The position numbers and the translations under genes are program-made. The notes under the pieces are model-generated. The model did no database searches, was not told the origin of the DNA, and saw nothing but the letters and a program-made list of their open reading frames with translations. From contig CAIPFN010000124.1 in NCBI GenBank assembly GCA_903864265.1, forward strand, positions 1 through 50,549: 50,549 bases of DNA. Reading direction: 5' to 3'. Shown in pieces: positions 13,220 to 34,337 of this stretch (the stretch's first letter is position 1; the number at the start of each line of letters is the position of its first letter). This stretch comes from an uncultured Bacteroidales bacterium. Its GTDB lineage: Bacteria > Bacteroidota > Bacteroidia > Bacteroidales > UBA4417.

Positions 13220-14194
13220 CTAAAAATACTTTTTCTCCACTAAAAATTCAGTCACATACTCGTACACCCCTTCTTCGAGGGTATAGAACGGGGCCGGGTA
13301 GGAAGCCTGCTGCAAGAGTTTTGTCATATCGGCTTCGGTGAAATACTGGTATTTCTCGCGTATATCCGCCGGTGTGTCAACGAATTCAATCTTTTCAGGG
13401 ATTTCGAGAGCTTTAAAAACGGCTTTGGCCAGGTGCAGGAAAGCGCGCGCTTTCCCGGTTCCCAGGTTGTAAAGCCCTGATTGTGGCTTGGTTTGCATCA
13501 TAAAATACAAAACATCAACAACATCTTTCACGTAAACAAAATCACGCAACTGCATGCCATCCGCAAAGCCTGAGCGGTGCGAGCGGAACAGTTTTACGCC
13601 CCCGGTTTCGTTAATCTGTTTAAAAGCATGTAGTATAACTGATGCCATCCGTGCTTTGTGGTATTCGTTCGGGCCGTACACATTGAAAAATTTCATCCCG
13701 GCCCAGAAAGGAGGCGTCTTTTCCTGCTGCAAGGCCCATACATCGAAATTGTTTTTCGATTCGCCGTAAGCGTTCAGAGGACGCAGTTTTTCAACCAGCG
13801 AATGCTCGTCGGAATAGCCATGTTCGCCCATGCCGTACGTTGCTGCTGACGAAGCATAAATTAACGGAACTTCATATTGTGTACAGGCTTCCCAAACCTG
13901 TTTGGTATAATTCAGGTTGAGACGGTTAAAAAGTTCGACATCCGATTCCGTAGTATCGGTGCGGGCACCCAGGTGAAAAACAGATGCCACTTCGAGGTGG
14001 TGTTTACGCAACCAGTTGATAAACTCATCGCGGTGTACATGACCCACAATAGATTTATGGTCCAGGTTATGATTCTTCAGCGGGTTGCTGAAATCGTCGA
14101 CAACAATGATATGGGTTAAGCCTTTGTTGTTGAGTTTATTTACCATACAACTGCCGATAAACCCTGCTGCTCCTGTTACTACGGTATAGGTCAT
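13220..14194 (-). CDS. hldD: ADP-L-glycero-D-manno-heptose 6-epimerase (SDR)
   Basis: VTGAAGFIGSCMVNKLNNKGLTHIIVVDDFS; YASSAATYGMGEHGYSDE; LRPLNAYGESKNNFDVWAL; FFNVYGPNEYHKARMASV. Confidence 0.93.
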   Translation of the reverse strand: MTYTVVTGAAGFIGSCMVNKLNNKGLTHIIVVDDFSNPLKNHNLDHKSIVGHVHRDEFINWLRKHHLEVASVFHLGARTDTTESDVELFNRLNLNYTKQVWEACTQYEVPLIYASSAATYGMGEHGYSDEHSLVEKLRPLNAYGESKNNFDVWALQQEKTPPFWAGMKFFNVYGPNEYHKARMASVILHAFKQINETGGVKLFRSHRSGFADGMQLRDFVYVKDVVDVLYFMMQTKPQSGLYNLGTGKARAFLHLAKAVFKALEIPEKIEFVDTPADIREKYQYFTEADMTKLLQQASYPAPFYTLEEGVYEYVTEFLVEKKYF

Positions 14195-14422: not shown

Positions 14423-16054
14423 CTACTCAATTTCCACTTCGCTCACCAGGAGCCAGGCTTTAGTCTCTCCCGCTGAATTCAACGAGGGATCGGAACTGGC
14501 ATTGATGGCCTTGATACGTATATACCGGGTATGCAGGTTATCAAAGTTCCGCGTGAGCATCACCGGACCATCGAGCCGCAGATCATCGGTTTGGGAAGGA
14601 TAGTAGGTATTAAGAAGAATATAGTCCTTCCCGTCAGCGGAGGCATAAAACTCAACAGCCGAAGGCAGAAACATACGGTTTGCAGGTAACTGAAGTACAT
14701 CGAGTCCCAACACCTTCACCTCTTTTACTTCACCAAGGTCAACCGCAACGTCGAAATCACTGCCTTCGAAACCCATCCACTGCTTATTGTCGGGATTGGA
14801 CGAACCAATCAGCCCGTCGAACAGTCCCGGGATGCCCGATCCCGGGTATTTCGGGCCAGGCTGAATGGCAAGTGCGGCAGTTTTAATGCCTTGAACAAAG
14901 GTGTACATACGGGTAATAGTCTCGCTAGTGTTTTTACCTGAAACGGAAACCGCTTTCAAGGTGCAGTTATTCCCTATGGTAAAAGGCGAAGTATATTTTT
15001 TTGACCCAGGGCCGGGCGGGGTTCCATCGAGAGTGTAATATACGGAGGACCCCTCAGCGGTAGTGGTCAGTTCGATCTGCTGAGGACCGGGGTATGCTCC
15101 CCCGGAGAGCGGGCACCAGGGTTTTGGAACATACTGGCTTGTCTTTCCCTGGTTTGCTTTGGTGCTAAATGCTTCATTAACTGGTCGCCCTATCCATTCA
15201 ACAGGTATTTTGAGCCCGAGCATACGGGCAATCGTAGGAGCGGTATTCATAAGGTCGTTGGGGGTTTCGAGCAGGGTGTTCTTTTTGATGCCAGGTCCAC
15301 TGATAATCCAGGGGACTTCCAGGTCCGAAAGGCTTTCTGCTCCCAGGGCGGGTACTTTGCTCCCGGGATTGGAAGTTACTATAAAGGCAGTAGTTTTACC
15401 CAATCCCATTTCCTGAATGCCTGTTATCAGTTTGCCGATTTCTGTATCTATCTCCCTGAACGACTGCAAATGGTACTTCGTCCCAAACCCTTTGCTGCGT
15501 CCGACTTCATCAGGTAACCCATAGTAAATAAAGGTAAAGAGCGGTTTTTCATTTTTAAAATAATTCAATGCCAGGGAGGTTATCATCACCTGTCCCTGTA
15601 TATATTGTTCCTTGCTGATGATTTTTTTATTCACATAAGTGCCCAGCCATTCCTGGTCGTAAAACATAGCCGTAACCGCCTTTGGCATTTGCTTCCGGAT
15701 CAGGGTAAAAATGGAAGGGAAATACCCGTCGGCATCTTTAACTGTAGGCTCAAAACCCTGGGAAAACAGGCTCCAGTCGCTATTTGTAACTCCATGCTGT
15801 TCAGGGCCCGCTCCCGAAAGTATGGAAGCCCAGTTCGGTGGGCCGGCCGCCGGCATAACTCCCCGGGTTTTGACCGAGATCACTCCCTGGGCAACCAGGC
15901 TGTTGATTGCCGGTGTTTCCGAATACTGAAAATCTTCGGCCGAAAGTCCGCCAATACCGATCAGAATAACATGTTTTGGCGATGCAGGCTGGGCCTGAAT
16001 GCTGAATGCTGGTATAAAGAATACTATGGTTATCAGTAGGTTGAATAGTTTCAT
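14423..16054 (-). CDS. Secreted alkaline-phosphatase-superfamily (NPP-like) fold protein, probably catalytically dead, with CHB_HEX_C_1-like and discoidin-like C-terminal domains
   Basis: HVILIGIGGLSAEDF ... PNWASILSGAGPEQHGVTNSDW fold motifs; SSVYYTLDGTPPGPGSKKYTSPF; C-terminal discoidin-like region. Start trimmed to the signal peptide MKLFNLLITIVFFIPAFSIQA at 16054 rather than the ORF-track start at 16378. Confidence 0.85.
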   Translation of the reverse strand: MKLFNLLITIVFFIPAFSIQAQPASPKHVILIGIGGLSAEDFQYSETPAINSLVAQGVISVKTRGVMPAAGPPNWASILSGAGPEQHGVTNSDWSLFSQGFEPTVKDADGYFPSIFTLIRKQMPKAVTAMFYDQEWLGTYVNKKIISKEQYIQGQVMITSLALNYFKNEKPLFTFIYYGLPDEVGRSKGFGTKYHLQSFREIDTEIGKLITGIQEMGLGKTTAFIVTSNPGSKVPALGAESLSDLEVPWIISGPGIKKNTLLETPNDLMNTAPTIARMLGLKIPVEWIGRPVNEAFSTKANQGKTSQYVPKPWCPLSGGAYPGPQQIELTTTAEGSSVYYTLDGTPPGPGSKKYTSPFTIGNNCTLKAVSVSGKNTSETITRMYTFVQGIKTAALAIQPGPKYPGSGIPGLFDGLIGSSNPDNKQWMGFEGSDFDVAVDLGEVKEVKVLGLDVLQLPANRMFLPSAVEFYASADGKDYILLNTYYPSQTDDLRLDGPVMLTRNFDNLHTRYIRIKAINASSDPSLNSAGETKAWLLVSEVEIE

Positions 16055-16509: not shown

Positions 16510-17343
16510 ATGAAACATTTTGAAACCAAATGGAAAGCACACGATGGCACCGACATCTTTGCCCAGGGCTGGGAGTCAGGAGCAAAAACCCTTAAAGCCG
16601 TGGTTTGCCTTGTACACGGGCTGGGAGAACATTCCTCGCGCTACCGGCATGTTGCTGAGGCTTTTGGACTTGAAGGGTATACGCTCTTTGCTGCTGATTT
16701 GCGCGGGCATGGCCGTTCGGGAGGCAAACGGGGGCATATTCCTTCCATAGCGATGGTGATGAAAGATATTGATTTGTTGCTTGAGCAAGCGCAGACCCTT
16801 TATCCGGGAGTACCCCTGATATTGTACGGTCACAGCCTGGGTGGAATTCTTGTACTGCATTACGGATTGTCGCATAAGCCGGAAGTAAAAGGTGTTATAG
16901 CTACAAGTTCAGGCCTGAGAACTGCTTTGGAAAATCAGCCGATTAAAATTTTAGCGGCTAAAGTACTCGGATCTGTCATTCCCGGCGTATCCTTGCCAAG
17001 CGGACTCGATGTAAATGCCATTTCCCATGATAAACATGTGGTGGAACTCTACAAAAACGACCCTCTGGTGCATGATAAAGTTTCACTGGGTTTTGGAAAG
17101 ATTATGCTCAGCACGGCCAAATGGACCCTGCAGCATTCCTCCGCGTTTTCCCTTCCGCTTTTGCTGTTGCACGGTAAAGCCGATGCGATTGCCTTCGCAT
17201 CGGGAAGTATAGAGTTTGCTGCACCCCTGAAGGAGAGATGCAGCCTGGTTTTGTTCGACGGGGCTTTTCACGAATTACATAACGAGCCGGAGAAGGCAAA
17301 AGTGATTAAAACTATGACAAACTGGATGGACTCCCTGCTTTAG
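16510..17343 (+). CDS. Alpha/beta hydrolase, monoacylglycerol lipase-like
   Basis: VHGLGEHSSRYRHVAEAFGLEGYTLFAADLRGHGRSGGKRGHI; nucleophile elbow YGHSLGG; GKADAIA and FHELHNEPEK (Asp/His). Confidence 0.92.
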   Translation: MKHFETKWKAHDGTDIFAQGWESGAKTLKAVVCLVHGLGEHSSRYRHVAEAFGLEGYTLFAADLRGHGRSGGKRGHIPSIAMVMKDIDLLLEQAQTLYPGVPLILYGHSLGGILVLHYGLSHKPEVKGVIATSSGLRTALENQPIKILAAKVLGSVIPGVSLPSGLDVNAISHDKHVVELYKNDPLVHDKVSLGFGKIMLSTAKWTLQHSSAFSLPLLLLHGKADAIAFASGSIEFAAPLKERCSLVLFDGAFHELHNEPEKAKVIKTMTNWMDSLL

Positions 17344-17571
17344 TCATAACCGGAGTTCCCTGATTCGGATTCATTTCATCAAAACCTTAGCCCGGCTCTT
17401 AAGGATCCGCGATTTTCAGCATGCAACTTTCCCGTTCTGAGAATTGCATTATAGACCAAAATGAACCTGAGCCTTATTTGCATAAAAAAAAACTTTGCCG
17501 GTGCGGGTATGCCGCACTATACTGAAAGACAGAAATTATTCACCTTTGTCATAAAGAAAAACCATTTCAAT

Positions 17572-19059
17572 ATGTCATTATATATACTGGCATTAGACCA
17601 GGGCACTACAAGCAGCCGGTCTATTTTATTTGATAATAAGGGAACCGTTCTGGCTGCCGCCCACAAAGAATTCACCCAACTGTTTCCAAAGCCGGGTTGG
17701 GTTGAGCATAACCCTGTCGAAATATGGGAAACCCAGCTCTCCACCGCCCAGGAAGTGATGACCATGGCCGGTATTTCGGCCGGGGATATCGCAGCCATTG
17801 GTATAACCAACCAGAGGGAAACTACCGTGGTTTGGGATAGAAATACGGGGGAACCTGTTTATAATGCTATCGTCTGGCAGGACCGAAGGACCGCTGCTTT
17901 TTGCGACGAACTGAAAGCGAAAGGCCTGGAGGAAACCATCCGTCAGAAAACCGGCCTGGTAGCCGATGCCTATTTCAGCGGGACCAAAGTGAAATGGATA
18001 CTGGATAATGTTCCGGGTGCCAGGGACAAAGCGGAAAATGGGGAATTGTGCTTTGGAACCATAGATACCTGGTTGTTATGGAAATTAACGGGCGGTAAAG
18101 TGCATGCCACCGATGTAAGCAATGCCAGCCGGACTATGCTCTGCAATATTTCGACCTGCCAGTGGGATGGTGAACTCGAAAAAATGCTGGATGTACCGGG
18201 TAATATGCTGCCCCAGATCCGCAGCAGCAGCGAGGTGTATGGCCATACCATATTGCTTGACGGGAAAACGGGAATTCCCGTGGCAGGCATGGCCGGCGAC
18301 CAGCAGGCTGCACTCTTCGGGCAGTTGTGCACCCAGGCCGGTATGGTAAAAAATACCTATGGCACCGGTTGTTTTATGCTGATGAACACAGGTGATAAAA
18401 TGATTGTTTCGGACCATAATTTACTCACAACCGTTGCCTGGAAAATTAACGGGATTACGCAGTACGCGCTCGAAGGCAGTGTATTTATTGCCGGCGCCGT
18501 TGTGCAATGGCTGAGAGATGGATTAGGCATTATTAAAACTTCGGCTGATGTGGAAGCCCTGGCCAAACAAGTGGATACCACCGATGGGGTTTATGTGGTC
18601 CCTGCATTTGCAGGATTAGGTGCACCATACTGGAACCAGCATGCCCGGGGAACCATTACCGGTTTAACCCGCGGAAGTAATGCCTCGCATATCGCCAGGG
18701 CTGCGGTCGAAAGTATAGCCTACCAGACCATGGATGTACTCAAAGCCATGGAAGCCGATAGCCGCATTCAGATTAAAGAACTGAGGGTCGATGGAGGCGC
18801 AACCCGGAATAATTTATTGATGCAGTTTCAAAGTGACGTATTAAATACAAAAGTGATCAGGCCGGTCATTACCGAAACCACAGCCCTGGGAGCTGCCTAC
18901 CTTGCCGGATTGGCAGTCGGGTTTTGGGGGAGCCTCGATGAGTTGCAACAACAGTGGCAGGTGGAAAGGGTTTTTGCACCCGAAATTACGGAAGAAAACA
19001 GAAACGAATTAACCCGCGGATGGCAGAAAGCTGTCACTGCAGCATTATCTATTGCCTAA
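17572..19059 (+). CDS. glpK: Glycerol kinase
   Basis: [21 protein letters not shown] ... [47 protein letters not shown]; start set at 17572 to match family N-terminus. Confidence 0.97.
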
Positions 19060-19072
19060 CTATCCGCGTTAC

Positions 19073-20629
19073 ATGAATAGAATTGACGAGCTTGGGAAAC
19101 TGCAGCAAGAAAAGGAATTTGATATAATTATAATTGGCGGTGGCGCTACAGGGCTTGGATGTGCTGTTGATGCGGCTTCCAGGGGCTATAAAACCCTGCT
19201 GCTTGAAAAGTATGATTTTTCGAAAGGGACCTCCAGCCGGTCCACAAAATTGGTGCACGGAGGGGTGCGCTACCTGGCCCAGGGAAATGTACACCTGGTA
19301 AGAGAAGCCTTATTGGAGCGCGGAAGGCTCTTACGCAATGCCCCTCATGTTTGCCATTCCTTATCCTTTGTGGTTCCGGCTTATAAATGGTGGCAGAAAT
19401 GGTATTACGGGTTTGGGTTATGGATGTATGAATTCCTTTCGGGTAAACTAAGCCTGGGAAAAACCCGCCTGCTGTCGAAACGTAAGGCATTGGAAGACCT
19501 TCCTGACTTATCCCCGGACCATCTCACAGGAGGGGTATTCTATTATGATGGACAATTTGACGATAGCCGGCTGGCCATAAATCTCGCCCAAACTGCTGTT
19601 GAACAGGGTGCCGTAGTCCTTAACTATATTGGTGTAACCGGATTTATTAAAGAAGGGGATGTCATTTCAGGGGTCAGAGCGAAAGATGAACTGAATGGAA
19701 TGGAGTTTACAATCAAAGCAAAAGTAGTTGTCAACGCGACAGGTGTTTTTGCAGATGCCTTACTGCAACTGGCCGAAGGGCATTCCGAACAGACTATTTC
19801 ACCATCACAGGGAATCCACCTGGTAGTTGAAAAGCATTTTTTCGGTGGGAGTGCCGGCATGATGATCCCCAAAACGGATGATGGCCGGGTACTGTTTGCC
19901 ATTCCCTGGCACGATAAACTGGTAATAGGCACAACAGATACAGCGGTTCAAAATATTACAGCTGAGCCCAAACCCCTGCAAGAAGAGGTGGATTTCATCA
20001 TCCGGCATTTTAACCGTTACACGGCCTCTGAAATTGATTACTCCGACGTTAAAAGCGTATTTGTAGGTTTACGGCCGCTGGCAAAGCAGGGTGCCGGAAC
20101 GAAGACCTCGGTCATGCCCAGGGATCATGTTATAAAAGTGCTGCCGTCGGGACTGGTTCATATCACAGGGGGAAAATGGACCACCTATCGTAATATGGCC
20201 GAAAAAACCATTGATAAAGCAATACAAACTGCCGGATCAGCCTATATACCCTGTAAAACAAAAGACTTGAAAATTCATGGTTGGATGGAAAATGGAACCA
20301 ACGGCCCTCTCGCGGTTTATGGTGCGGATGCTGAATTCATAAAACAAATGATCAGGGAAGACGGCTCTTTAGCTGAAAAAATTCATCCATCCTATCCCTA
20401 TACCAAAGCGGAAGTAAAATGGTGTATTGTAAACGAGATGGCCATCACCCCCGAAGATATACTGGCGCGCCGGCTGCGATTGCTCTTTCTCGATGCACAG
20501 GCAGCCATGGATGCTGCACCTGTGGTAGCCCGTATGTTATCCAGCCTGACTTTTCAAAGTGCCGAATGGGAGCATGAACAGATCATGGCTTTCAACGAAC
20601 TGGCAAAAGCTTATTTAATTCACTTCTGA
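19073..20629 (+). CDS. glpD: Glycerol-3-phosphate dehydrogenase (FAD)
   Basis: FDIIIIGGGATGLGCAVDAASRGYKTLLLEKYDFSKGTSSRSTKLVHGGVRYL; ATG at 19073, 13 nt after glpK stop (the ORF track uses an overlapping TTG at 19052). Confidence 0.95.
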   Translation: MNRIDELGKLQQEKEFDIIIIGGGATGLGCAVDAASRGYKTLLLEKYDFSKGTSSRSTKLVHGGVRYLAQGNVHLVREALLERGRLLRNAPHVCHSLSFVVPAYKWWQKWYYGFGLWMYEFLSGKLSLGKTRLLSKRKALEDLPDLSPDHLTGGVFYYDGQFDDSRLAINLAQTAVEQGAVVLNYIGVTGFIKEGDVISGVRAKDELNGMEFTIKAKVVVNATGVFADALLQLAEGHSEQTISPSQGIHLVVEKHFFGGSAGMMIPKTDDGRVLFAIPWHDKLVIGTTDTAVQNITAEPKPLQEEVDFIIRHFNRYTASEIDYSDVKSVFVGLRPLAKQGAGTKTSVMPRDHVIKVLPSGLVHITGGKWTTYRNMAEKTIDKAIQTAGSAYIPCKTKDLKIHGWMENGTNGPLAVYGADAEFIKQMIREDGSLAEKIHPSYPYTKAEVKWCIVNEMAITPEDILARRLRLLFLDAQAAMDAAPVVARMLSSLTFQSAEWEHEQIMAFNELAKAYLIHF

Positions 20630-20799: not shown

Positions 20800-23064
20800 T
20801 TATTTCACTACCACTTCGTCAAGAAACACCCATGAAAGTCCGCCGGCCGAGGGATGCCATGAGGGCAGCCTTTGGGTGCCGGTAATATAGTAACGTATGT
20901 ACCTGCGGTTTTTAAACTCGCCGGTAAAAACGTAAGTCCTTGTTACTTCTTCCTTTTGCTGGGAACCTGCAACTTCCATACTGCCGGCAGCATCCCAGGT
21001 AATACCGTCGGCCGAAACCATGCAGCTTACCCGTGCCGGATGCAGTATCCAGCTTTTAGGATCCCACAACGAGCCCAGGCTGATGGAATGAAACGTCCGG
21101 CTTTCGCCCAAATCGAGAGTGAATTGAAAATCCATCCCTTCCCAGCCCAGCCAGTGAACCTTATAGTCGTTAGCCCCCTGCACACCGTTGGTTATTACGG
21201 CCATGTCGCCACCACTGTATTTCGGATTGGGTGCGGGCGATGCAACAGCTTTTTTGCGGAATGCCAGGTTATCCTCAACCTGAACGTCGATAAACCGGAG
21301 GGTTGAGGCGTAATAGCTGTCAACAGTTAATCCCGATTCATTCAGGTATTTAACTTCATTGTTTTTGGCAGTGAGGTTGAAATCCTCGAGTATAGCTTTC
21401 ATTTCCGGCTTCAGTACAAATTTTCCTCCTGTTTCGGTGTACCAGCCCCTGGTACCGAACATATCGTTTTTCCCGATTTCCATAACGGCAAATTCCAGAG
21501 GCAGCCGGCTAATTTTTACTCGCTGAACAACCTCAGGCCGGCTGGCCACGGCAGTTTCAGCCTGGTCGAACAATGTATTGTATAAAAGAATGTTTTCAGC
21601 CGACAAAAATGATTTTTCATGATGCACAGGCGAACCGTAAATATCGAGCCATTCGCCTGATTTAATAAGTTCCGATTCAAGTCTGTCGATATACCGGCGG
21701 ATAAAAGGGGCGGCCTCCGCATAATAACCTTCCAGGAATACAGTCTTCACCGAATCGATGTTCACGTCCGGATTCCAGAGCAGGCGGGCCAGCATATATG
21801 CCTTGAGCTCCGCCATTTCGTTGCCTTTCATGGTATTGGTCTGCTGGAAATGCTGGTATGCCCCCATGCGGGTCAGGAACTGAATATTGGGTTGCAGTAT
21901 GTGCAGGTTGGGGAAGGGCGACACAGAGTTGGCAAAGTCGACGGTGTAATCCCAGAGGTAGATGTTGCGGGTTAGTTTTCCCCAGTCGGAAATATCTCTG
22001 ACAAATGAGCGGCTGCCCGAATCACTTTCAATGCTTTTGCTCCGGTTCAGTTCTATGGTGCAAAGCATTATCTGTACATTGTCAGCCGGTTTGGTTTTCA
22101 TGGGTGCCGAACGCGAAAACTGGTAGGCGAGGGTCGAAATGGTTTTATCCGGGAAATGAGCTGCCACCTGGTTTACAAAACGGATCAGCGGCCCCGAGGG
22201 CGCACCTTCTTCGGCAATTACAGCCTTGCATTTCTCACACTGGCAATAGGAGAAATTGTCGTTCTGGCTCACCGACCAGATCGTCTTTTCCGGCTGCAGG
22301 GCCATTTCGGCTACCAGTTTATCAATGACCAGTTTCAGCACTTCAGGATTCGACATGCATAACTGATCAATGATACGTTTGCCGTTCATAAAGGCAAAAT
22401 ACTCGGGATGCGGACCAAAATAGGTCGCCCATGGAATCAGCCTGTTGAAAGTATGCACATAATAACCATCGGCAAACACTTCGTTGATGTTGTCGAGCCT
22501 CATCCATTCCTTGTAAGCGGCATACTGGTTAAATTGCCCGTGTACAATCCGGAGTGAGTTCCTTGGCTTATCGGAATAGTTCAGGGCGGGTAACACTATG
22601 TTTTTAGTCTGTGGAACATATTCTGCCTCAGGAGCATAAATGCGGCATCCAAATTTTTTTTCAAGCAGATCGATAACACCATACAAGGTTCCTTTGTGGC
22701 TGCCGCCTACGATGAACAGCTTTTTATTTTCGGTGAAGCTGTGGAATTCATCCGCTTCCAAAGCTGATTTCAGCCTTGCTGATTCAGCCAGGGCAATCCT
22801 GTTGGTAAAACCTATGGAAATTTCAGTTTTGATGGGTCTGGCCTGGTCGGTCGCTATGGGGAGTTTTAAACCGGATTTCTTTACCACATATTGCTGCAGC
22901 AATTCCGCCGCCTTTTGTTCTATAGTGGTGGCCTTCGCAGAAACAACTATCACATAGTCCGACTTTCCGTTCACGGTGATTTTTAGCTGTTTCCTTTTTG
23001 CCGATACCGGGTTCAACAGGAAACAAACTGCCATCAGTACTATTATCAGGCGGACGCTTTTCAT
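20800..23064 (-). CDS. DUF4838 / GH163-like protein (putative endo-beta-N-acetylglucosaminidase) with C-terminal discoidin-like domain
   Basis: N-terminal alpha-glucuronidase-type beta/alpha region (TIEQKAAELLQQYVVKKSGLKLPI, GTLYGVIDLLEKKFGCRIYAPEAEYVP), WSVSQNDNFSYCQCEKCKAVIAEEGAPSGPLIRFVNQVA; C-terminal DFQFTLDLGESRTFHSISLG. Start at the signal-peptide Met (23064). Confidence 0.8.
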   Translation of the reverse strand: MKSVRLIIVLMAVCFLLNPVSAKRKQLKITVNGKSDYVIVVSAKATTIEQKAAELLQQYVVKKSGLKLPIATDQARPIKTEISIGFTNRIALAESARLKSALEADEFHSFTENKKLFIVGGSHKGTLYGVIDLLEKKFGCRIYAPEAEYVPQTKNIVLPALNYSDKPRNSLRIVHGQFNQYAAYKEWMRLDNINEVFADGYYVHTFNRLIPWATYFGPHPEYFAFMNGKRIIDQLCMSNPEVLKLVIDKLVAEMALQPEKTIWSVSQNDNFSYCQCEKCKAVIAEEGAPSGPLIRFVNQVAAHFPDKTISTLAYQFSRSAPMKTKPADNVQIMLCTIELNRSKSIESDSGSRSFVRDISDWGKLTRNIYLWDYTVDFANSVSPFPNLHILQPNIQFLTRMGAYQHFQQTNTMKGNEMAELKAYMLARLLWNPDVNIDSVKTVFLEGYYAEAAPFIRRYIDRLESELIKSGEWLDIYGSPVHHEKSFLSAENILLYNTLFDQAETAVASRPEVVQRVKISRLPLEFAVMEIGKNDMFGTRGWYTETGGKFVLKPEMKAILEDFNLTAKNNEVKYLNESGLTVDSYYASTLRFIDVQVEDNLAFRKKAVASPAPNPKYSGGDMAVITNGVQGANDYKVHWLGWEGMDFQFTLDLGESRTFHSISLGSLWDPKSWILHPARVSCMVSADGITWDAAGSMEVAGSQQKEEVTRTYVFTGEFKNRRYIRYYITGTQRLPSWHPSAGGLSWVFLDEVVVK

Positions 23065-23150
23065 AACATTGTTATTAGAAGTAGACTTTTTACCAAAAAG
23101 TGTAACGGGGGGCATCTTAAAAGCAAATCAAGGAAGAGAATCGGGTAATT

Positions 23151-25466
23151 CTATTCCACTACCAGTTCGTCCGCAAAAATCCAGCATGGCTGACCTTTAT
23201 ATTCATGCCATTCGGGGAGTTTTCCCGGGCTGATGGCCCTGACCTTGATGTACCGCACCAACGTTTCAGGAAATTGACTTCCGGCAGCTTTAACTTCTCT
23301 CTTGCTGTCGCGACCCGCCTCGAATAAAGTGGGCTCCAGTTCTTTCCATAGCTTTCCATCCACCGAAATCATAAAAATGACTTCCGAGGGGAAAAGCACC
23401 CAGTCGGCAGGATTCTGCACAAAGTTCAGCTTCACCGAACTTATTTTTGTTGGCTGCAGCAAATCGACCATAATCGACATATCGGTGCCTTCATAGCCCT
23501 GCCAGCCTGATTTATAGGAAGCCGTGCCGCTTAATCCATCGGTCATGGTCTGGTCGCCGGTGCCGGGATATTTGAATGAATAAGGCTTGAGGATGGTAAC
23601 CGGTTTGCCGGAGGCTTTATTTACCGATATATCGCGCTGGGTTATACTTCCGGCCATCAGCCCGTTTTTGAAAAGGGCGGCTTTTGTTACAGTTGATTTT
23701 GGCACTTCGAAAGGTGAAGTATAAAGAGCAGACGTTGCGCCGGGGTCGCTGCCGTCGAGGGTATACCTGATCTCCGTTCCTTTGGTTTCGCTGCTTAAAA
23801 CCACCAGGTTGCGGTTCTGGTCACGCTGCGTGGTAAGGTCGACCGTAAAGGAACCTTTGCTGTACTTCACACTCATCATGTCCAGCCGGGGAAACTGGTT
23901 ATCCATGCGGTTGAGAAAGTCGTCCCAGTTGCGCCGGTCCTGCTGCGACCATGCCACCTCTGCCAGGGCGATTGCCCTCGGGAACGCCTTCAGCTCAACG
24001 GCTTCCGGCGTTTTTACGTATTCGGTCCATACATTCCCCTGAACACCAATGATATGTTTTGCCTGTTCGGGCGTAAGTACAGGAGGCACAGGGTTGTAGG
24101 AATAAACTGTTTTGAGGGTCACTTTGCCTCCATTGGCATCGGGTTCGCTTGCAGGATCGCCCTGGAAGTAATCGAAATAGCAATAATCAACGGGCGTCAT
24201 AATGGCATCGTGTCCCTGCAGGGCAGCATCAATACCTGCCTGTACGCTGCGCCAGGCCATAACGGTTGCTTCGGGAGCCAGGCCGCCTTCGAGTATTTCG
24301 TCCCAGCCTATAAGCCGTCGGTTTTTTGACAACAGGAATTTTTCTATCCGCTTAATAAAGTAACTTTGGAGTTCAGCCTCATCTTTCAGTCCTTCGGTCC
24401 TGATCCTTGCCTGGCATTTCGGACACTTTTCCCATCTCGGTTTCGGAGCTTCGTCGCCGCCTATATGAATATAGGCCGATGGGAAAATAGCCATGATTTC
24501 GGTGAGTACATCCTGTAAGAACAGGAAAACGGAATCGTTGCCTGCACAGTAAATATCGTCGGCAACGCCCCATTTGGTCCGTACTTCGAAAGGTCCGCCG
24601 GTACACGAAAGCCATGGATAGGCCGTTAAGGCCGCAACCGAATGCCCCGGCATTTCAATTTCAGGAATTACAGTGATATATTTTGAGGCCGCATAGGCAA
24701 CCACTTCGCGTGCCTCAGCCTGGGTGTAAAACCCGGAATAGGGAATACTGTCAATTTCACTGGTTTTTCCTACCTGCGTTCCTTTCCTGATGGATCCTAC
24801 CTGGGTAAGCCCGGGATATTTTTTAATTTCAATCCTCCATCCCTGGTCTTCGGTTAAATGCCAGTGGAAGGTGTTTATTTTATACATGGCCATCAGGTCG
24901 ATGTATTTTTTAATGAACTCCACGGGAAACATATGCCTGCCTACATCCAGGTGCAGGCCCCTGTACCCGAAACGGGGCATGTCTTTTATACTTACTACCG
25001 GCAGGGAGTATAAGGCCTGCCCCGATTGCTGAGCAGGGTTTGTCAGGGGAAATAGCTGCAGCAAACTCTGAAATCCGTAAAAGGCTCCGTTGGCAGCCAT
25101 GGAACGGATAAAAACAGAGCTTTTCGTAACATCCAGCGTATAACCTTCGTTTCCCAACTCAGGAGCCGCAGATTCAAAGGTAAAGACTATGGCATTATTA
25201 ACTTTCATGCCTCGTTTGTACACCTCAACGGGAGGCGGAACAACTCCGGTAAAGTTAATCCTGCGGAGCATCAAAAGCGCTATTTCACGCAACTCCTTAT
25301 TGTCAGCATCTACCAGTACACGGGTATTTTTCTGAATGATGAACAGCCCTTTACCCTCGATTACCTGCATAGGTACCGGAACAATATTCACTGAACCCGC
25401 AAACAGTTTTGTATAAACTACGAACATGCTAAGGATGAATAAAATCAGTTTGCCTTGAAATTTCAT
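23151..25466 (-). CDS. GH20 beta-N-acetylhexosaminidase with CHB_HEX_C_1-like and discoidin-like C-terminus
   Basis: PRFGYRGLHLDVGRHMFPVEFIKKYIDLMAMYKINTFHWHLTEDQGWRIEIKKYP; AYIHIGGDEAPK catalytic DE; IRYTLDGSDPGATSALYTSPF; start trimmed to MKFQGKLILFILSMF. Confidence 0.95.
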   Translation of the reverse strand: MKFQGKLILFILSMFVVYTKLFAGSVNIVPVPMQVIEGKGLFIIQKNTRVLVDADNKELREIALLMLRRINFTGVVPPPVEVYKRGMKVNNAIVFTFESAAPELGNEGYTLDVTKSSVFIRSMAANGAFYGFQSLLQLFPLTNPAQQSGQALYSLPVVSIKDMPRFGYRGLHLDVGRHMFPVEFIKKYIDLMAMYKINTFHWHLTEDQGWRIEIKKYPGLTQVGSIRKGTQVGKTSEIDSIPYSGFYTQAEAREVVAYAASKYITVIPEIEMPGHSVAALTAYPWLSCTGGPFEVRTKWGVADDIYCAGNDSVFLFLQDVLTEIMAIFPSAYIHIGGDEAPKPRWEKCPKCQARIRTEGLKDEAELQSYFIKRIEKFLLSKNRRLIGWDEILEGGLAPEATVMAWRSVQAGIDAALQGHDAIMTPVDYCYFDYFQGDPASEPDANGGKVTLKTVYSYNPVPPVLTPEQAKHIIGVQGNVWTEYVKTPEAVELKAFPRAIALAEVAWSQQDRRNWDDFLNRMDNQFPRLDMMSVKYSKGSFTVDLTTQRDQNRNLVVLSSETKGTEIRYTLDGSDPGATSALYTSPFEVPKSTVTKAALFKNGLMAGSITQRDISVNKASGKPVTILKPYSFKYPGTGDQTMTDGLSGTASYKSGWQGYEGTDMSIMVDLLQPTKISSVKLNFVQNPADWVLFPSEVIFMISVDGKLWKELEPTLFEAGRDSKREVKAAGSQFPETLVRYIKVRAISPGKLPEWHEYKGQPCWIFADELVVE

Positions 25467-25606
25467 AAAATAGGTTTTGTGCTTATTAGCTGGATGGGAT
25501 GAAATGAGTTGCAACTCAGTAATCGTACAATTCGAATCACAGTAGACTGAAGTGTCGGAATCTGGCTGCAACTTCGGTTTGCAGGGTATACGGCCTGGAC
25601 GGGTTT

Positions 25607-26719
25607 CTAGTCCCTGTATTTCTCGACCGACTGCTTAACGATGGCCTGCATCTTTTCGGCTTCTCTTTCCATGGCTTCTATCAGCCGGAACTGAACCTTA
25701 GCCCTGTCGAGATTGTGTTCAGGATAGGAAGTGCGGAAATACGGGTCGCCATCAATAAAATCGGTGAGGAACCTGAGCCCGATAATGAAAGTCATAAACC
25801 TGGCCGAGAAAGCCAGGTTGTCAATTTCAACCTCAGTAAGGGTATGAAGAGTGCTTTTGATAAAACCGGCCGTGTAAGCCTCATAAATAGGCAGGTTAAT
25901 GTCCACCTTCGAAAGGTCTTTCTCATCTTCGAGTGCCGTATTGGCGCCTGTGCGTATGGCATCGCCAAAATCGAACAGTATACTGCCCGGCATTACCGTG
26001 TCGAGGTCGACAATGCACATGGCATGTTCGCCGGCGTCGAATAATATATTGTTGAACTTGGTGTCGTTATGCGTGATGCGTTTCGGCAGGCTGCCCGCTT
26101 TTATCAGGGCCGGAATGTTGAGCATCTGCCCGGTCCTCCTCCTGATAAATTCAATCTCGTCCGGTATAACTTTAACCCGGTCAACATGGTCAGCTTTCAG
26201 TGATTTTTCGAAAGTATCAAGGCGCTTTTCCATATTGTGGAAATCGGGTATGATTTCCATCAGCCTGTCGGCCGGCAGATCAGCCAGCAGCGACATAAAG
26301 ATTCCGAAGGCTTTCCCACCTTCATAGGCAATATTGGTATTTTCAACAAAGTCGTACCCGTGCATATGGTCAATATACCTATACAGCCGCCAATACTGCC
26401 CCTGTTCATCGAGGTAATATTTCCGGCCATCGGTACAGGGAATGATTTCCAGCACTTTAAAATCCAGTTCCGGGTTTTCGGCCAGTTTTTCAGCCAGGTG
26501 ACCCGTAACAGTGCCTATATTGTTCATCAGTCCATTTACGTCCTTGAAAATATAGTTGTTGATCCACTGCAGGAAATAGCCCGGATGATCAGCTGATGTG
26601 GTTTTGATCAGGTAAGAATCATTGATATGCCCGGTGTTATTTTTTTCGGAATCCAGAAATTCCCCTTCAATGCTGAAATGTGAAATAATTTCTTTGATAT
26701 TGCGTTCCATTTTATTCAT
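25607..26719 (-). CDS. APH-fold sugar kinase, NahK-like (anomeric N-acetylhexosamine kinase candidate)
   Basis: HNDTKFNNILFDAGEHAMCIVDLDTVMPGSILFDFGDAIRTGAN; start overlaps the stop of the upstream nucleotidyltransferase. Confidence 0.85.
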   Translation of the reverse strand: MNKMERNIKEIISHFSIEGEFLDSEKNNTGHINDSYLIKTTSADHPGYFLQWINNYIFKDVNGLMNNIGTVTGHLAEKLAENPELDFKVLEIIPCTDGRKYYLDEQGQYWRLYRYIDHMHGYDFVENTNIAYEGGKAFGIFMSLLADLPADRLMEIIPDFHNMEKRLDTFEKSLKADHVDRVKVIPDEIEFIRRRTGQMLNIPALIKAGSLPKRITHNDTKFNNILFDAGEHAMCIVDLDTVMPGSILFDFGDAIRTGANTALEDEKDLSKVDINLPIYEAYTAGFIKSTLHTLTEVEIDNLAFSARFMTFIIGLRFLTDFIDGDPYFRTSYPEHNLDRAKVQFRLIEAMEREAEKMQAIVKQSVEKYRD

Positions 26720-27623
26720 TCCAGAGTTGAGCAGGATATATCCCTGCTTTTATAAGTTGAGCTAGTTTTTCGATTACCAGAGGCTTGTCCTCTTTGTAGG
26801 TAACTCCAAACCATTTTGCATCGCTTCGGAGCACTTTTACGCTGGCTTCGGAACGGTTAATCAGGTTGTCGATGGCCGAAGGGATATAGAATTCAGCCTT
26901 CAGCGAATCGCTGTTTGCTTTTACAAATTCAGTGAACAGCAGTTCCGTCTGTTTAAAATATTCGGGGGTAAATCCCCAGAAGTTCATCGAAACCAGGGTT
27001 TCCGGTTCCAGGAAGGCAACAGTGCCGTCGGCATCCTGGTAGGCTATACCTCCGTTCACATACTGTATGTTGGTGCGTTCGGTAACCGACACCAGGAATC
27101 CGTTCTCGTCGGCCATGCAAACCCCTCGCGAAACAGTGCCATGGTCCGACATGGTGTTGCCAACCTGGTATCCAACCAGTGAATACTGGGTTTGCTGGCT
27201 TTCGGTTAACGAACCCAGGTAATCCGCCATGGTTTTAAATGCACCTGCACCGTAAAAGTCGTCCCCGTTAATCACGGCAAAAGGCTCGAGGATAATGTCG
27301 CTGGCCATGAGTATGGCGTGAGCCGTTCCCCAGGGTTTGGTGCGTTCGGCTGAGATGGCTAAACCTGCCGGTACCCGGTCAATTTCCTGGAAGACATACT
27401 CTACCGGGATATGAGGTTGAAGCTTGCTGATGAAAATATCCTTGAAATCCTGTTCGAAGCTCTTGCGGATAATAAAAACTACCTTCCCGAACCCGGCCCT
27501 GATAGCGTCGTAAATGGAGTAATCAATAATGGTTTCGCCCGAGGGGCCTACAGGGTCAATCTGTTTCAGGCTGCCATAACGGCTGCCCATGCCGGCTGCC
27601 AATACAAGTAATGTTGGTTTCAT
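26712..27623 (-). CDS. Sugar-1-phosphate nucleotidyltransferase
   Basis: LVLAAGMGSRYGSLKQIDPVGPSGETIIDYSIYDAIRAGFGKVVFI; VINGDDFYGAGAF. Confidence 0.9.
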   Translation of the reverse strand: MKPTLLVLAAGMGSRYGSLKQIDPVGPSGETIIDYSIYDAIRAGFGKVVFIIRKSFEQDFKDIFISKLQPHIPVEYVFQEIDRVPAGLAISAERTKPWGTAHAILMASDIILEPFAVINGDDFYGAGAFKTMADYLGSLTESQQTQYSLVGYQVGNTMSDHGTVSRGVCMADENGFLVSVTERTNIQYVNGGIAYQDADGTVAFLEPETLVSMNFWGFTPEYFKQTELLFTEFVKANSDSLKAEFYIPSAIDNLINRSEASVKVLRSDAKWFGVTYKEDKPLVIEKLAQLIKAGIYPAQLWNE

Positions 27624-27627
27624 ATTT

Positions 27628-28986
27628 TTACAGAATTTCTTTGCTTGATTTCATTTTGTGTCCGATGGTAGCGTAATAAATGATAAAGAGATAGATGGGT
27701 ACCATGATCCATAAGGATTGTTGAAATCCTATCGATTGGCCGAGTTTGGCATAGGTAGGTGGTATAATTGCCCCCCCCGCAATACCCATGATAAGCAATG
27801 CCGAACCTATCTTGGTATATTTTCCCAGGTTGTTGAGTGCCAGCGGCCAGATGGCCGGCCACATCAGAGCGTTGGCCCACCCCAGTAAGGTAACAAAAAA
27901 TACCGCATTTGGAAGCATGGGTATTTCGAAACCCGGGAGGTTGTTCAGCCATCCGAACAAGGTGGAAAAAAGCTGAGTATCGCTCGTTGATGAATTGGCA
28001 GCACCCAGTGCAAACAAGGCTCCCAGAAAAGCCGAAATCACCAGGGCTTTCGACTGGCTGATCACTTTGGGAATCAGAATAATACCCAGGATATATCCGA
28101 ATACCATAAAGGCCATGGTGAAGGCGGTCAGTTTCGGGGCATAGGCCAGGTGCAGCGACCTTCCGAACTGGGTAAGACTGTCACCTGCCATAACTTCAAC
28201 TCCTACATAAACAAACAAAGTAATGATACCCAGCAGCAGGTGACGGATTTTAAGCGCATCCGGTATCTGTTTCACAAATCCCTTCAGTGTTTCATGATCG
28301 TCTGCTTCTATGTCAATTTCATCAGGCAGGGATGAGAACTTAACCAGTACGGCAAAAAGTGCCAGCAGGAGGGCCATGGCCAGGTAAGGCCCTACAATTC
28401 TCGAAGCCAGGCCGTTAAGCAGAACTTCTTTCTGATCGAAGGTGAGCTGTGCCAGGTTGCTTTCGCTGAATTTTTCCATCCCGTGCAGGATTAAGGCCGT
28501 GAGAACCAGGGGACTGAAAACACCGGCCATCTTATTGCATATGCCCATGATGGCCATGCGCTTGGCCGCACTTTCGCGGGGACCGATAATGGTAATAAAT
28601 GGATTGGTAGCCGTTTGAAGCAGGGCTAAGCCGGTTCCCAACACGAATAAGCCGGCCAGGAAAACGCCGAACTGACGGGAATAGGCGGCAGGAATAAAAA
28701 TTAAGGCCCCCAGTGCCATGATCAGCAAACCGACAAAAACCCCGTTTTTATAGCCTATCTTTTTTAGTACAAAAGAGGAAGGTAAAGCCATCACAAAATA
28801 GGCGATGTAAAACGCAAGTGTCACCAGGCTGGCCTGGAAAGGCGTAAGCTCACATGCAGTTTGTAAAAACGGCATGAGCGAGCCGTTAAGCCAGGTTACG
28901 AAACCGAAAATAAAAAACAACGCCCCGATGATGGAAAGCGACATGATGTAATTTTTACGGTCTACAGCCGTTGTTGTTGTGTTCAT
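27628..28986 (-). CDS. FucP/GluP-like sugar MFS transporter (candidate N-acetylglucosamine permease)
   Basis: 12-TM-type hydrophobic protein; FVTWLNGSLMPFLQTACELTPFQASLVTLAFYIAYFVMALPSSFVLKKIGYKNG. Confidence 0.9.
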   Translation of the reverse strand: MNTTTTAVDRKNYIMSLSIIGALFFIFGFVTWLNGSLMPFLQTACELTPFQASLVTLAFYIAYFVMALPSSFVLKKIGYKNGVFVGLLIMALGALIFIPAAYSRQFGVFLAGLFVLGTGLALLQTATNPFITIIGPRESAAKRMAIMGICNKMAGVFSPLVLTALILHGMEKFSESNLAQLTFDQKEVLLNGLASRIVGPYLAMALLLALFAVLVKFSSLPDEIDIEADDHETLKGFVKQIPDALKIRHLLLGIITLFVYVGVEVMAGDSLTQFGRSLHLAYAPKLTAFTMAFMVFGYILGIILIPKVISQSKALVISAFLGALFALGAANSSTSDTQLFSTLFGWLNNLPGFEIPMLPNAVFFVTLLGWANALMWPAIWPLALNNLGKYTKIGSALLIMGIAGGAIIPPTYAKLGQSIGFQQSLWIMVPIYLFIIYYATIGHKMKSSKEIL

Positions 28987-29105
28987 AGTCTGTTTTGTTT
29001 TTTGTGTTTAATTTCTTGAATTTCAATGCTATATGGTTGGAAATGCTTTAAAACGGACGTTCCTGTCTATCAGGGCTAAGTGTGCTTCATCTTCAACTGC
29101 TTAAT

Positions 29106-31070
29106 TTACTCTACTTCATACCTCACAAAAACCTCTATAGCCTCGTATTCAGCCATTCCGAGTTTGTCGTACAGGCGGGCAGTATTTTTATTCCTTTCTT
29201 CGGCACGCTGCCAGAACTCACGCTTGTCGGCACCCATAAACATGGCGCCATCCTTTTGCGACTGATGCCTGAAAATCGCATTCCGCTTGATCACCACTTC
29301 TTCGGGACTAAGCGGAACGGCCATATCCACCATTTCGATTTCCCATTCCTGCCAGGCTCCGCGATAAAGCCATACGCGGCAATCTTTCATCCATTCCTCT
29401 TCTTTCATGCGTTCGAGGGCTTCGATGATGATATCGATACACACCCTGTGCGTACCGTGCGGATCGCTCAGGTCGCCGGCGGCATAAATCTGGTGTGGTT
29501 GTAGCTTTCGCAGGAAATCCATGGTGATTTGTATATCAGCCTCACCGGCAGGCGCTTTTTTTACGGTGCCGGTTTCATAAAACGGAAGATCCAGGAAGTG
29601 AACATTTTTTTCAGGCAGTCCAATATACCGGCAGGAAGCCGTTGCCTCACCCCGCCTGATCGAAGCTTTTACCAAAAGCAATTCGGCAGGCTCTATGCTG
29701 TCCTTTTTCTTGTTCCTGTAAAAATCAGTGGACTCATTATACAGGAACTCGGCTTTAGGCTCAACAATGCCGTAAATCTTTTCATAGTTTCGCACAAAGT
29801 CAAGGTAACGTATGGCATCATCGTCGCTCACGGCTATGCTTCCCGAGGTCTGATAAGCCACATGCACATCATGTCCGTGTTCCACCAGGCGGGCAAAAGT
29901 GCCGCCCATCGAAATCACATCATCATCCGGATGCGGGCTGAAGAGCGCCACCCTTTTGGGAAAGGGCAGGGCCCGCTCAGGCCGGGTGGTATCGTCAACA
30001 TTGGGTTTTCCACCGGGCCAGCCTGTGATGGTATGCTGAAGATCATTAAATACCTTAATGTTAATTTTGCTGAAAACGGCATGGCTCGAGATGAGGTCCG
30101 ACAGACCATAATCGTTATAATCCCTCTCGGTGAGTTTCAGCAGGGGTTTTCCGGTTTGCGTACAAAGCCAGAGAACTGCCTTGCGGATCATACTGTTCGT
30201 CCATTCGCAGGGGCCCACTCGCCAGGGCGACTTATAGCGCGTCAGCTGGGCGGCGGCAGGGGAATCCACAATAAAAGTGGTATTGGGATGGTTCTGAAGA
30301 TAGGTGGATGGAATCACATCCGTAACCGGGCCTTCCACTGCTTTGGCAAGTATTTCGGCTTTCCCTTCCCCCCAGGCCATCAGGTATATTTCTTTGGCCG
30401 CCAATATAGTTCCAACACCCATGGTAATGGCAAAATGCGGTACATGTTCTTCCCCGTTAAACGTATCGGCGGCATCGTTGCGCGTCAGCCTGTCGAGCGT
30501 AACCAGCCGGGTTTTCGAATTATAAGCCGATCCGGGTTCGTTGAAGCCTATGTGTCCCGTGCGCCCTATGCCCAACAGTTGAATATCTATTCCCCCGGCT
30601 TCGGCTATTTTTTTTTCGTAATCGCGGCAAAAAACTGCCACATCGTCTTTTTCAATGCTGCCTGAAGGGATATGAATATTTTGAGATTGTATGTCAATAT
30701 GCTTGAAAAGCCTGTCCCACATGAAATGATTATAACTCTGCTGGTGATCGTGCTCAAGCGGATAATATTCGTCAAGGTTAAAAGTGATAACATTCGAAAA
30801 GCTCAGCCCTTCCTCTTTATGCCAGCGGATCAGTTCATTGTACACCTTAAGCGGCGTGGATCCGGTTGCCAGGCCGAGTATCACATTCTGCCCCGACAGT
30901 TGGCGCTCTTTGATCAGTGACACAATTTTTTCGGCCACCGCAAGGGATCCTGCTGCAGCGGAAGGAAAAACCCTGACCGGGATTTTTTCGAAACGGGCCA
31001 CAAATGCATCATCATTCAGCATCGAACTATTCGTTGCCGATGTAAATCCTTTAATGTCAGCTAATTTCAT
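29106..31070 (-). CDS. nagB: Glucosamine-6-phosphate deaminase-like (NagB) domain fused to a PIG-L family deacetylase domain
   Basis: NagB: VILGLATGSTPLKVYNEL, ITFNLDEYYPL, GIGRTGHIGFNEPGSAYNSKTR; PIG-L: VALFSPHPDDDVISMGGTFARL, GDLSDPHGTHRVC. Confidence 0.92.
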   Translation of the reverse strand: MKLADIKGFTSATNSSMLNDDAFVARFEKIPVRVFPSAAAGSLAVAEKIVSLIKERQLSGQNVILGLATGSTPLKVYNELIRWHKEEGLSFSNVITFNLDEYYPLEHDHQQSYNHFMWDRLFKHIDIQSQNIHIPSGSIEKDDVAVFCRDYEKKIAEAGGIDIQLLGIGRTGHIGFNEPGSAYNSKTRLVTLDRLTRNDAADTFNGEEHVPHFAITMGVGTILAAKEIYLMAWGEGKAEILAKAVEGPVTDVIPSTYLQNHPNTTFIVDSPAAAQLTRYKSPWRVGPCEWTNSMIRKAVLWLCTQTGKPLLKLTERDYNDYGLSDLISSHAVFSKINIKVFNDLQHTITGWPGGKPNVDDTTRPERALPFPKRVALFSPHPDDDVISMGGTFARLVEHGHDVHVAYQTSGSIAVSDDDAIRYLDFVRNYEKIYGIVEPKAEFLYNESTDFYRNKKKDSIEPAELLLVKASIRRGEATASCRYIGLPEKNVHFLDLPFYETGTVKKAPAGEADIQITMDFLRKLQPHQIYAAGDLSDPHGTHRVCIDIIIEALERMKEEEWMKDCRVWLYRGAWQEWEIEMVDMAVPLSPEEVVIKRNAIFRHQSQKDGAMFMGADKREFWQRAEERNKNTARLYDKLGMAEYEAIEVFVRYEVE

Positions 31071-31082
31071 GATTTATATGAT

Positions 31083-34337
<3,255 letters not shown>

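Follow-up and report, generated by a model that had tools for sequence, protein, structure and literature searches.

The gene at positions 14423..16054 (minus strand) of the window, by which we mean the whole 50,549-nucleotide stretch of DNA analysed here from an uncultured Bacteroidales bacterium, probably encodes a secreted pseudoenzyme that was derived in place from an NPP-like hydrolase. Its fold appears to be kept under purifying selection, and the protein works most likely by binding or structure, not by catalysis.

The gene was delimited from the open reading frame, its translation, Pfam matches and nine orthologues from the same genus. It has 543 codons and begins with the ATG at 16054; the mechanical reading frame extends to 651 amino acids, and 16054 is the start that carries the signal peptide, which is visible by eye at the N-terminus (MKLFNLLITIVFFIPAFSIQAQ). 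An AP/NPP-like domain follows at residues 24-312 (15119..15985, minus strand), and the C-terminal part (14426..15118, minus strand) consists of a CHB_HEX_C_1 module (317-380) and a discoidin-like domain (about 391-543). Pfam Phosphodiest (PF01663) matched residues 29-229 with an E-value of 3.5e-21 and 76.6 bits, against a cut-off of 23, and CHB_HEX_C_1 matched residues 317-380 (E 2.2e-17). By profile and fold searches, residues 29-300 belong to the alkaline phosphatase superfamily, within its NPP branch. The last ~220 residues (317-543) align with the tail of the GH20 hexosaminidase BT0459 (6q63; E 2.2e-15), and the discoidin-like part, which has no Pfam match, was yet aligned to BT0459 by both sequence and fold. 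A search of NCBIfam for a specific family name gave sub-threshold matches only. The first-pass annotation had proposed the same coordinates, an NPP/AP-type fold, a signal peptide, a CHB_HEX_C_1-like module and a discoidin-like domain, and the results above bear out each of these proposals.

Catalytic residues were assigned by aligning to human NPP3 a profile of 29 homologues, in nearly all of which the motifs are intact. Residues D35, S71, D182, H186, D229 and H230 fell on the GxDG, T-x-PN, DxxGH and DHG motifs. In the homologue alignment, numbered by the intact orthologue L006 (window numbering plus one), D183, D230, H231 and H238 are invariant, and D36, S72 and H187 are at least 90% conserved. 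The last ligand, H237, was taken from its invariance and position, not from a structure, and the seven catalytic residues in window numbering are thus D35, S71, D182, H186, D229, H230 and H237. Alignment and codons agree that six of the seven are replaced in the window protein (D35G, S71G, H186R, D229N, H230P and H237L), which leaves D182 as the sole survivor. The first-pass annotation had read five degenerate motifs, GIGGL (33-37), PAAGPPNWAS (68-77), PDEVGR (181-186), TSNPG (227-231) and ALGA (236-239), against a family consensus. All five are found in the protein, and the consensus was accurate: the six intact orthologues of the genus and the readable order-level relatives have GIDG, [ST]xSAPNW, PDxx[GA]H, [ST]DHGG and HGG.

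An active phosphodiesterase of this type has a Thr or Ser nucleophile before xPN and six Asp/His ligands of two metals. The window protein has Gly71 where Ser is expected and keeps D182 alone among the ligands, and no alternative ligand set is evident. It thereby answers to the definition of a pseudoenzyme, a known kind of protein that is homologous to an enzyme family and is without the conserved catalytic motifs (PMC10211241). Active-site loss is beyond chance, as catalytic positions were changed in 6 of 7 cases, against 13 of the 119 other AP-domain positions that are invariant in six intact orthologues (Fisher p 3.5e-5). The motif segments gave the same picture, with 11 of 25 positions changed compared with 8 of 101 elsewhere (p 6.3e-5). 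No comparable excess was observed in six held-out intact controls, none of which had any catalytic position changed.

We then compared the state of the site across one genus of 16 genomes, ten of which have the gene (the window and nine orthologues). All seven catalytic residues are kept in six orthologues, namely L006 (G015), L008 (G010), L009 (G012), L010 (G013), L012 (G003) and L013 (G005). The orthologues L005 (G008) and L007 (G011) have in common a replacement of His186 by Gln, plus small changes nearby. The orthologues with this replacement, at L034:8452-10080 and L036:13459-15087, have the other catalytic residues all intact and are possibly one-metal enzymes or enzymes of altered specificity. 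The orthologue L011 (G001), whose N-terminus lies partly inside a run of N so that five of the seven positions are readable, has lost four of these five (D182A, H186T, H230V and H237K). The genus holds a graded series, from intact through half-changed to dead orthologues. Order-level relatives that share the architecture (L044, L045, L047 and L048) are intact where readable; together with the intact orthologues of the genus, they indicate that the enzyme is the ancestral state and that the loss is derived. Changes in the window protein and L011 coincide at invariant positions well above expectation, with 11 shared between sets of 14 and 25 out of 100 positions compared (p 7e-6), and the replacement residues are mostly different, as expected once constraint is lifted at one site.

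No intact paralogue was found in the window's own genome (G000; assembly 64% complete). The only other PF01663 match there, on G000:C80, was considered as a candidate and proved to be another protein, which has its own motifs. A scan of the collection for the exact peptide patterns found one relative, which is the same gene as in G015. In another genome of the genus, G004, there are 34 PF01663 matches, many of them on one contig (C187 and others), consistent with a large sulfatase-type expansion. The active site of the window protein was lost in place with no duplicate detected, and sister species encode an intact enzyme at the same position.

The flanking genes document this positional orthology. 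In G013, G003 and G005 the order is alaS, M23 peptidase, MerR, hldD-type epimerase, the pseudoenzyme orthologue, (DUF4838), GH20, APH-fold kinase, nucleotidyltransferase-like gene, NagP-like transporter and NagB/PIG-L, with DUF4838 present in G013 alone of these three; G012 has the same order as far as DUF4838, where its contig ends. In the window, the conserved neighbour on one side is an ADP-glyceromanno-heptose 6-epimerase-like gene of hldD type (13220..14194, minus strand), identified by synteny and by TIGR02197 of NCBIfam (369.7 bits, cut-off 274.6). On the other side lies an N-acetylhexosamine-type block (20800..34289, minus strand; Pfam and NCBIfam), which comprises DUF4838, GH20, the APH-fold kinase, the nucleotidyltransferase-like gene, the NagP-like transporter, NagB/PIG-L and GH2, in an order conserved in sister genomes. 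It is followed by ROK, SusC/SusD-like genes (recognized by inspection), GH27 and GH125. Only in the window is the gene split from DUF4838-GH20 by a cassette on the opposite strand (16510..20629, plus strand), which encodes a monoglyceride-lipase-like hydrolase, glycerol kinase (glpK) and glycerol-3-phosphate dehydrogenase (glpD), assigned by Pfam with specific names by inspection, and which is absent at this place in sister loci. Separation of the gene from GH20 is also seen in G008, in G011 and G001 to the extent of their contigs, and likewise in G010 and G015, which have intact orthologues. Unlinking from the GH20 block was considered as a cause of the loss and set aside: every one of the four changed orthologues is unlinked, yet the same holds for two intact ones, and the cases are too few. 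A TAnnTTTG promoter box was not found just upstream of the pseudoenzyme gene. Within the block, a single reading frame at 29106-31070 fuses glucosamine-6-phosphate isomerase (NagB) and PIG-L (GlcNAc de-N-acetylase family) domains. The APH-fold kinase and nucleotidyltransferase-like genes overlap (25607-27623), and both keep their place next to GH20 and the NagP-like transporter; the nucleotidyltransferase-like protein had no Pfam match at E 1e-8, and the pair is possibly a sugar kinase and a sugar-phosphate nucleotidyltransferase for N-acetylhexosamines.

Since the sequence comes from a metagenome-type assembly, 64% complete and in 392 contigs, an error of assembly or sequencing or a foreign piece of contig might have produced such a gene. 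This account is largely refuted and we regard it as barely credible: gene order is conserved in sister genomes on both sides, the frame is clean, the changes cluster in the active site, and the separately assembled G001 shows comparable loss.

How often the site was lost depends on the placement of G001. At least two lineages show loss, the window (with or without G001) and, for one ligand only, G008/G011. The window and G001 were paired in the protein tree built from all columns (85/95) and in the tree of the tail only (90/93). Removal of the active-site columns abolished this pairing (AU p 0.41 for holding both together), and four neighbouring genes grouped G000 with G012 and G013, leaving G001 outside (93/93). 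With the pairing lost in this way and the neighbouring genes in conflict with it, a single shared loss is neither shown nor rejected; if the placement by neighbouring genes is right, near-complete loss occurred twice. We tentatively entertain a wider scenario. In it, an NPP-like enzyme of a glycan locus would have been converted, in two or more independent events (G000 and G001), into a protein that is non-catalytic but retained; G008/G011 would be a third lineage, at the start of the same path. Each event would have affected the sole copy of the gene, and the pocket and a conserved loop of the GH20-type tail would erode together. Were this so, the tail loop would be part of the catalytic unit, and a second, non-catalytic job would be what permits recurrent loss of catalysis.

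The predicted fold survived these changes. Modelled with AlphaFold2, the window protein and the intact L006 have nearly identical elements, with pLDDT values of 87.8 and 89.5, respectively, and Foldseek with both models returned BT0459 (for the tail), Xac NPP and ENPP enzymes as best matches. Superposition of a model on NPP had been suggested as a check of the fold, and the predicted fold is intact, matching Xac NPP with an E-value of 1.8e-15. Confidence in the window model fell below 50 at residues 235-237, the old HGG loop, and at 526-528, within what was the CPxxHPG loop of the tail. The L006 model is confident at this tail loop, with block means of 97 and 91 around the loop versus 52 in the window, whereas the HGG block is modest in both models (63 in L006 versus 53 in the window). 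The tail loop, CPxxHPGxG (about 521-530), is the most conserved one of the tail, and in the window protein 4 of its 8 invariant positions are changed, compared with 4 of 53 in the rest of the tail (p 0.007). The corresponding counts in L011 are 4 of 8 and 7 of 53 (p 0.03). This erosion hints that the tail loop may have been part of the catalytic unit, and it could equally reflect slow functional loss of the whole protein.

Could the protein still be an enzyme, with migrated ligands or other chemistry in the same pocket? Tyr195, invariant in the orthologues, is His in the window protein, and this His might act together with D182. In the case of YejM, one paper describes a pseudo-hydrolase (PMC13125744) and another reports a Mg-dependent phosphatase (PMC7576196). 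Nevertheless, replacement has struck the nucleophile, the loop glycines and five of the six ligands, and the fact that L011 carries other substitutes at these positions speaks against a new conserved site. Residual catalysis is accordingly a slim prospect, and we infer from the residues that the window protein has no hydrolase activity.

We investigated whether the gene is maintained, using a branch codon model written for this analysis. On the window branch, omega was 0.16 for the AP domain, not significantly different from the background of 0.084, and 0.10 for the tail; omega = 1 was rejected for both (2dlnL 8.1 and 16.8, respectively), with the caveat that synonymous sites are near saturation and that the loss may have come only partway along the branch. 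For the window, L011 and their stem together, omega was 0.14 in the AP domain and 0.16 in the tail (2dlnL 99.5 and 119.7). The 36 motif codons alone were uninformative. When neutral decay was simulated with indels not counted, the share of stop-free frames had dwindled to about 4-7% by 0.05 substitutions per site and to 0.3% by 0.1, and from 0.2 upwards not one of 300 was left; the synonymous divergence of the window branch is near 0.9. Thus, the reading frame is under constraint, and, subject to synonymous saturation, the gene is retained by selection as a pseudoenzyme would be. In both domains, the window gene is less similar to its orthologues than those are among themselves, so constraint is somewhat relaxed.

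These rates bear on a rather unlikely reading, in which the substrate has gone from the niche, the gene is slowly becoming a pseudogene, and its frame is intact because the loss is recent relative to the branch. Faster evolution of both domains, the eroded tail loop, the mild and non-significant rise in omega, and the locus of G002, which is present without this gene, would all fit such decay. Against it, omega = 1 is rejected. The change of six of the seven catalytic residues and of second-shell residues also implies a long neutral time, yet stops come almost at once under neutrality, and L011, with its site eroded to a comparable degree, has a frame that is open where readable. The dN/dS comparison that the first-pass annotation had named as a check on neutral decay therefore came out against decay, with the window gene evolving somewhat faster than its intact orthologues. 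Its view of a protein both non-catalytic and maintained is supported on four counts: near-complete loss of ligands, no other ligand set evident, a constrained frame and an intact predicted fold.

For the maintained pseudoenzyme, we propose the following course, in which ancestry, positional orthology, loss of the ligands and an intact, constrained frame are shown by the data, whereas the lack of hydrolase activity, binding as the retained function and the ancestral substrate are inferred. The ancestor was a two-metal phospho(di)ester hydrolase, NPP-like and with a GH20-type tail, in a degradation locus of N-acetylhexosamine/N-glycan type. N-glycans and alpha-mannans are targets of the GH20, GH2 and GH125 families, and phosphatases act in alpha-mannan breakdown (PMC10154615); in view of this setting, the ancestral enzyme plausibly freed a glycan of a decorating phosphate or phosphodiester group. 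The window lineage then lost the nucleophile and five of the six metal ligands while purifying selection on the fold continued. Two-metal phosphoryl transfer as practised by the family should be impossible with no nucleophile and one of six ligands, and the protein would for that reason persist by binding, most plausibly of a glycan via the tail, or as a structural part. The tail is of the module type found in glycan-active enzymes (CHB_HEX_C_1 and a BT0459-like region), which makes glycan binding plausible, but this reading is weakened because the CPxxHPG loop is not retained. Binding of phosphate, which the first-pass annotation had raised beside glycan binding, is unlikely at the old site, given the loss of the nucleophile and of five of the six metal ligands.

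Among known systems, Xac NPP (2gsn/7n1s), vertebrate ENPP and PF01663 have the fold and motif frame in common with window residues 29-300; the window protein differs in being without six of the seven catalytic residues and in having an added GH20-type tail. That it easily passes the PF01663 threshold shows that such a match is no proof of phosphodiesterase activity in sugar-degradation loci. The six intact genus orthologues are the same gene with the same domain order and mostly the same neighbourhood, at 44-65% identity, but keep all seven residues. BT0459 of Bacteroides thetaiotaomicron, the best Foldseek match, which removes GlcNAc from N-glycans (PMC9522356, PMC10154615), has the same C-terminal pair of CHB_HEX_C_1 and discoidin-like modules, together with a GH20 catalytic domain that the window protein does not have. 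On this fold, the analogue closest to the window protein is YejM/PbgA (LapC), an envelope protein with a periplasmic domain of alkaline-phosphatase-superfamily-like fold, which has been called a pseudo-hydrolase and ascribed a role in binding (PMC13125744). Unlike the window protein, it is membrane-anchored, belongs to the LtaS/EptA-like branch, regulates LPS synthesis and keeps its Thr nucleophile. Its disputed inactivity is a reminder that missing motifs call for an assay. Many known pseudoenzymes are paralogues of an active copy; here, in contrast, catalysis was lost in place from the one copy detected. A search for pseudoenzymes in polysaccharide utilisation loci returned no paper from the literature collection that was covered. 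What is apparently new is an NPP-branch, seemingly single-copy pseudoenzyme that sits in a glycan locus and whose orthologues form a graded series within a single genus, and this compact series is suited to testing what an alkaline-phosphatase-superfamily protein does after catalysis is gone.
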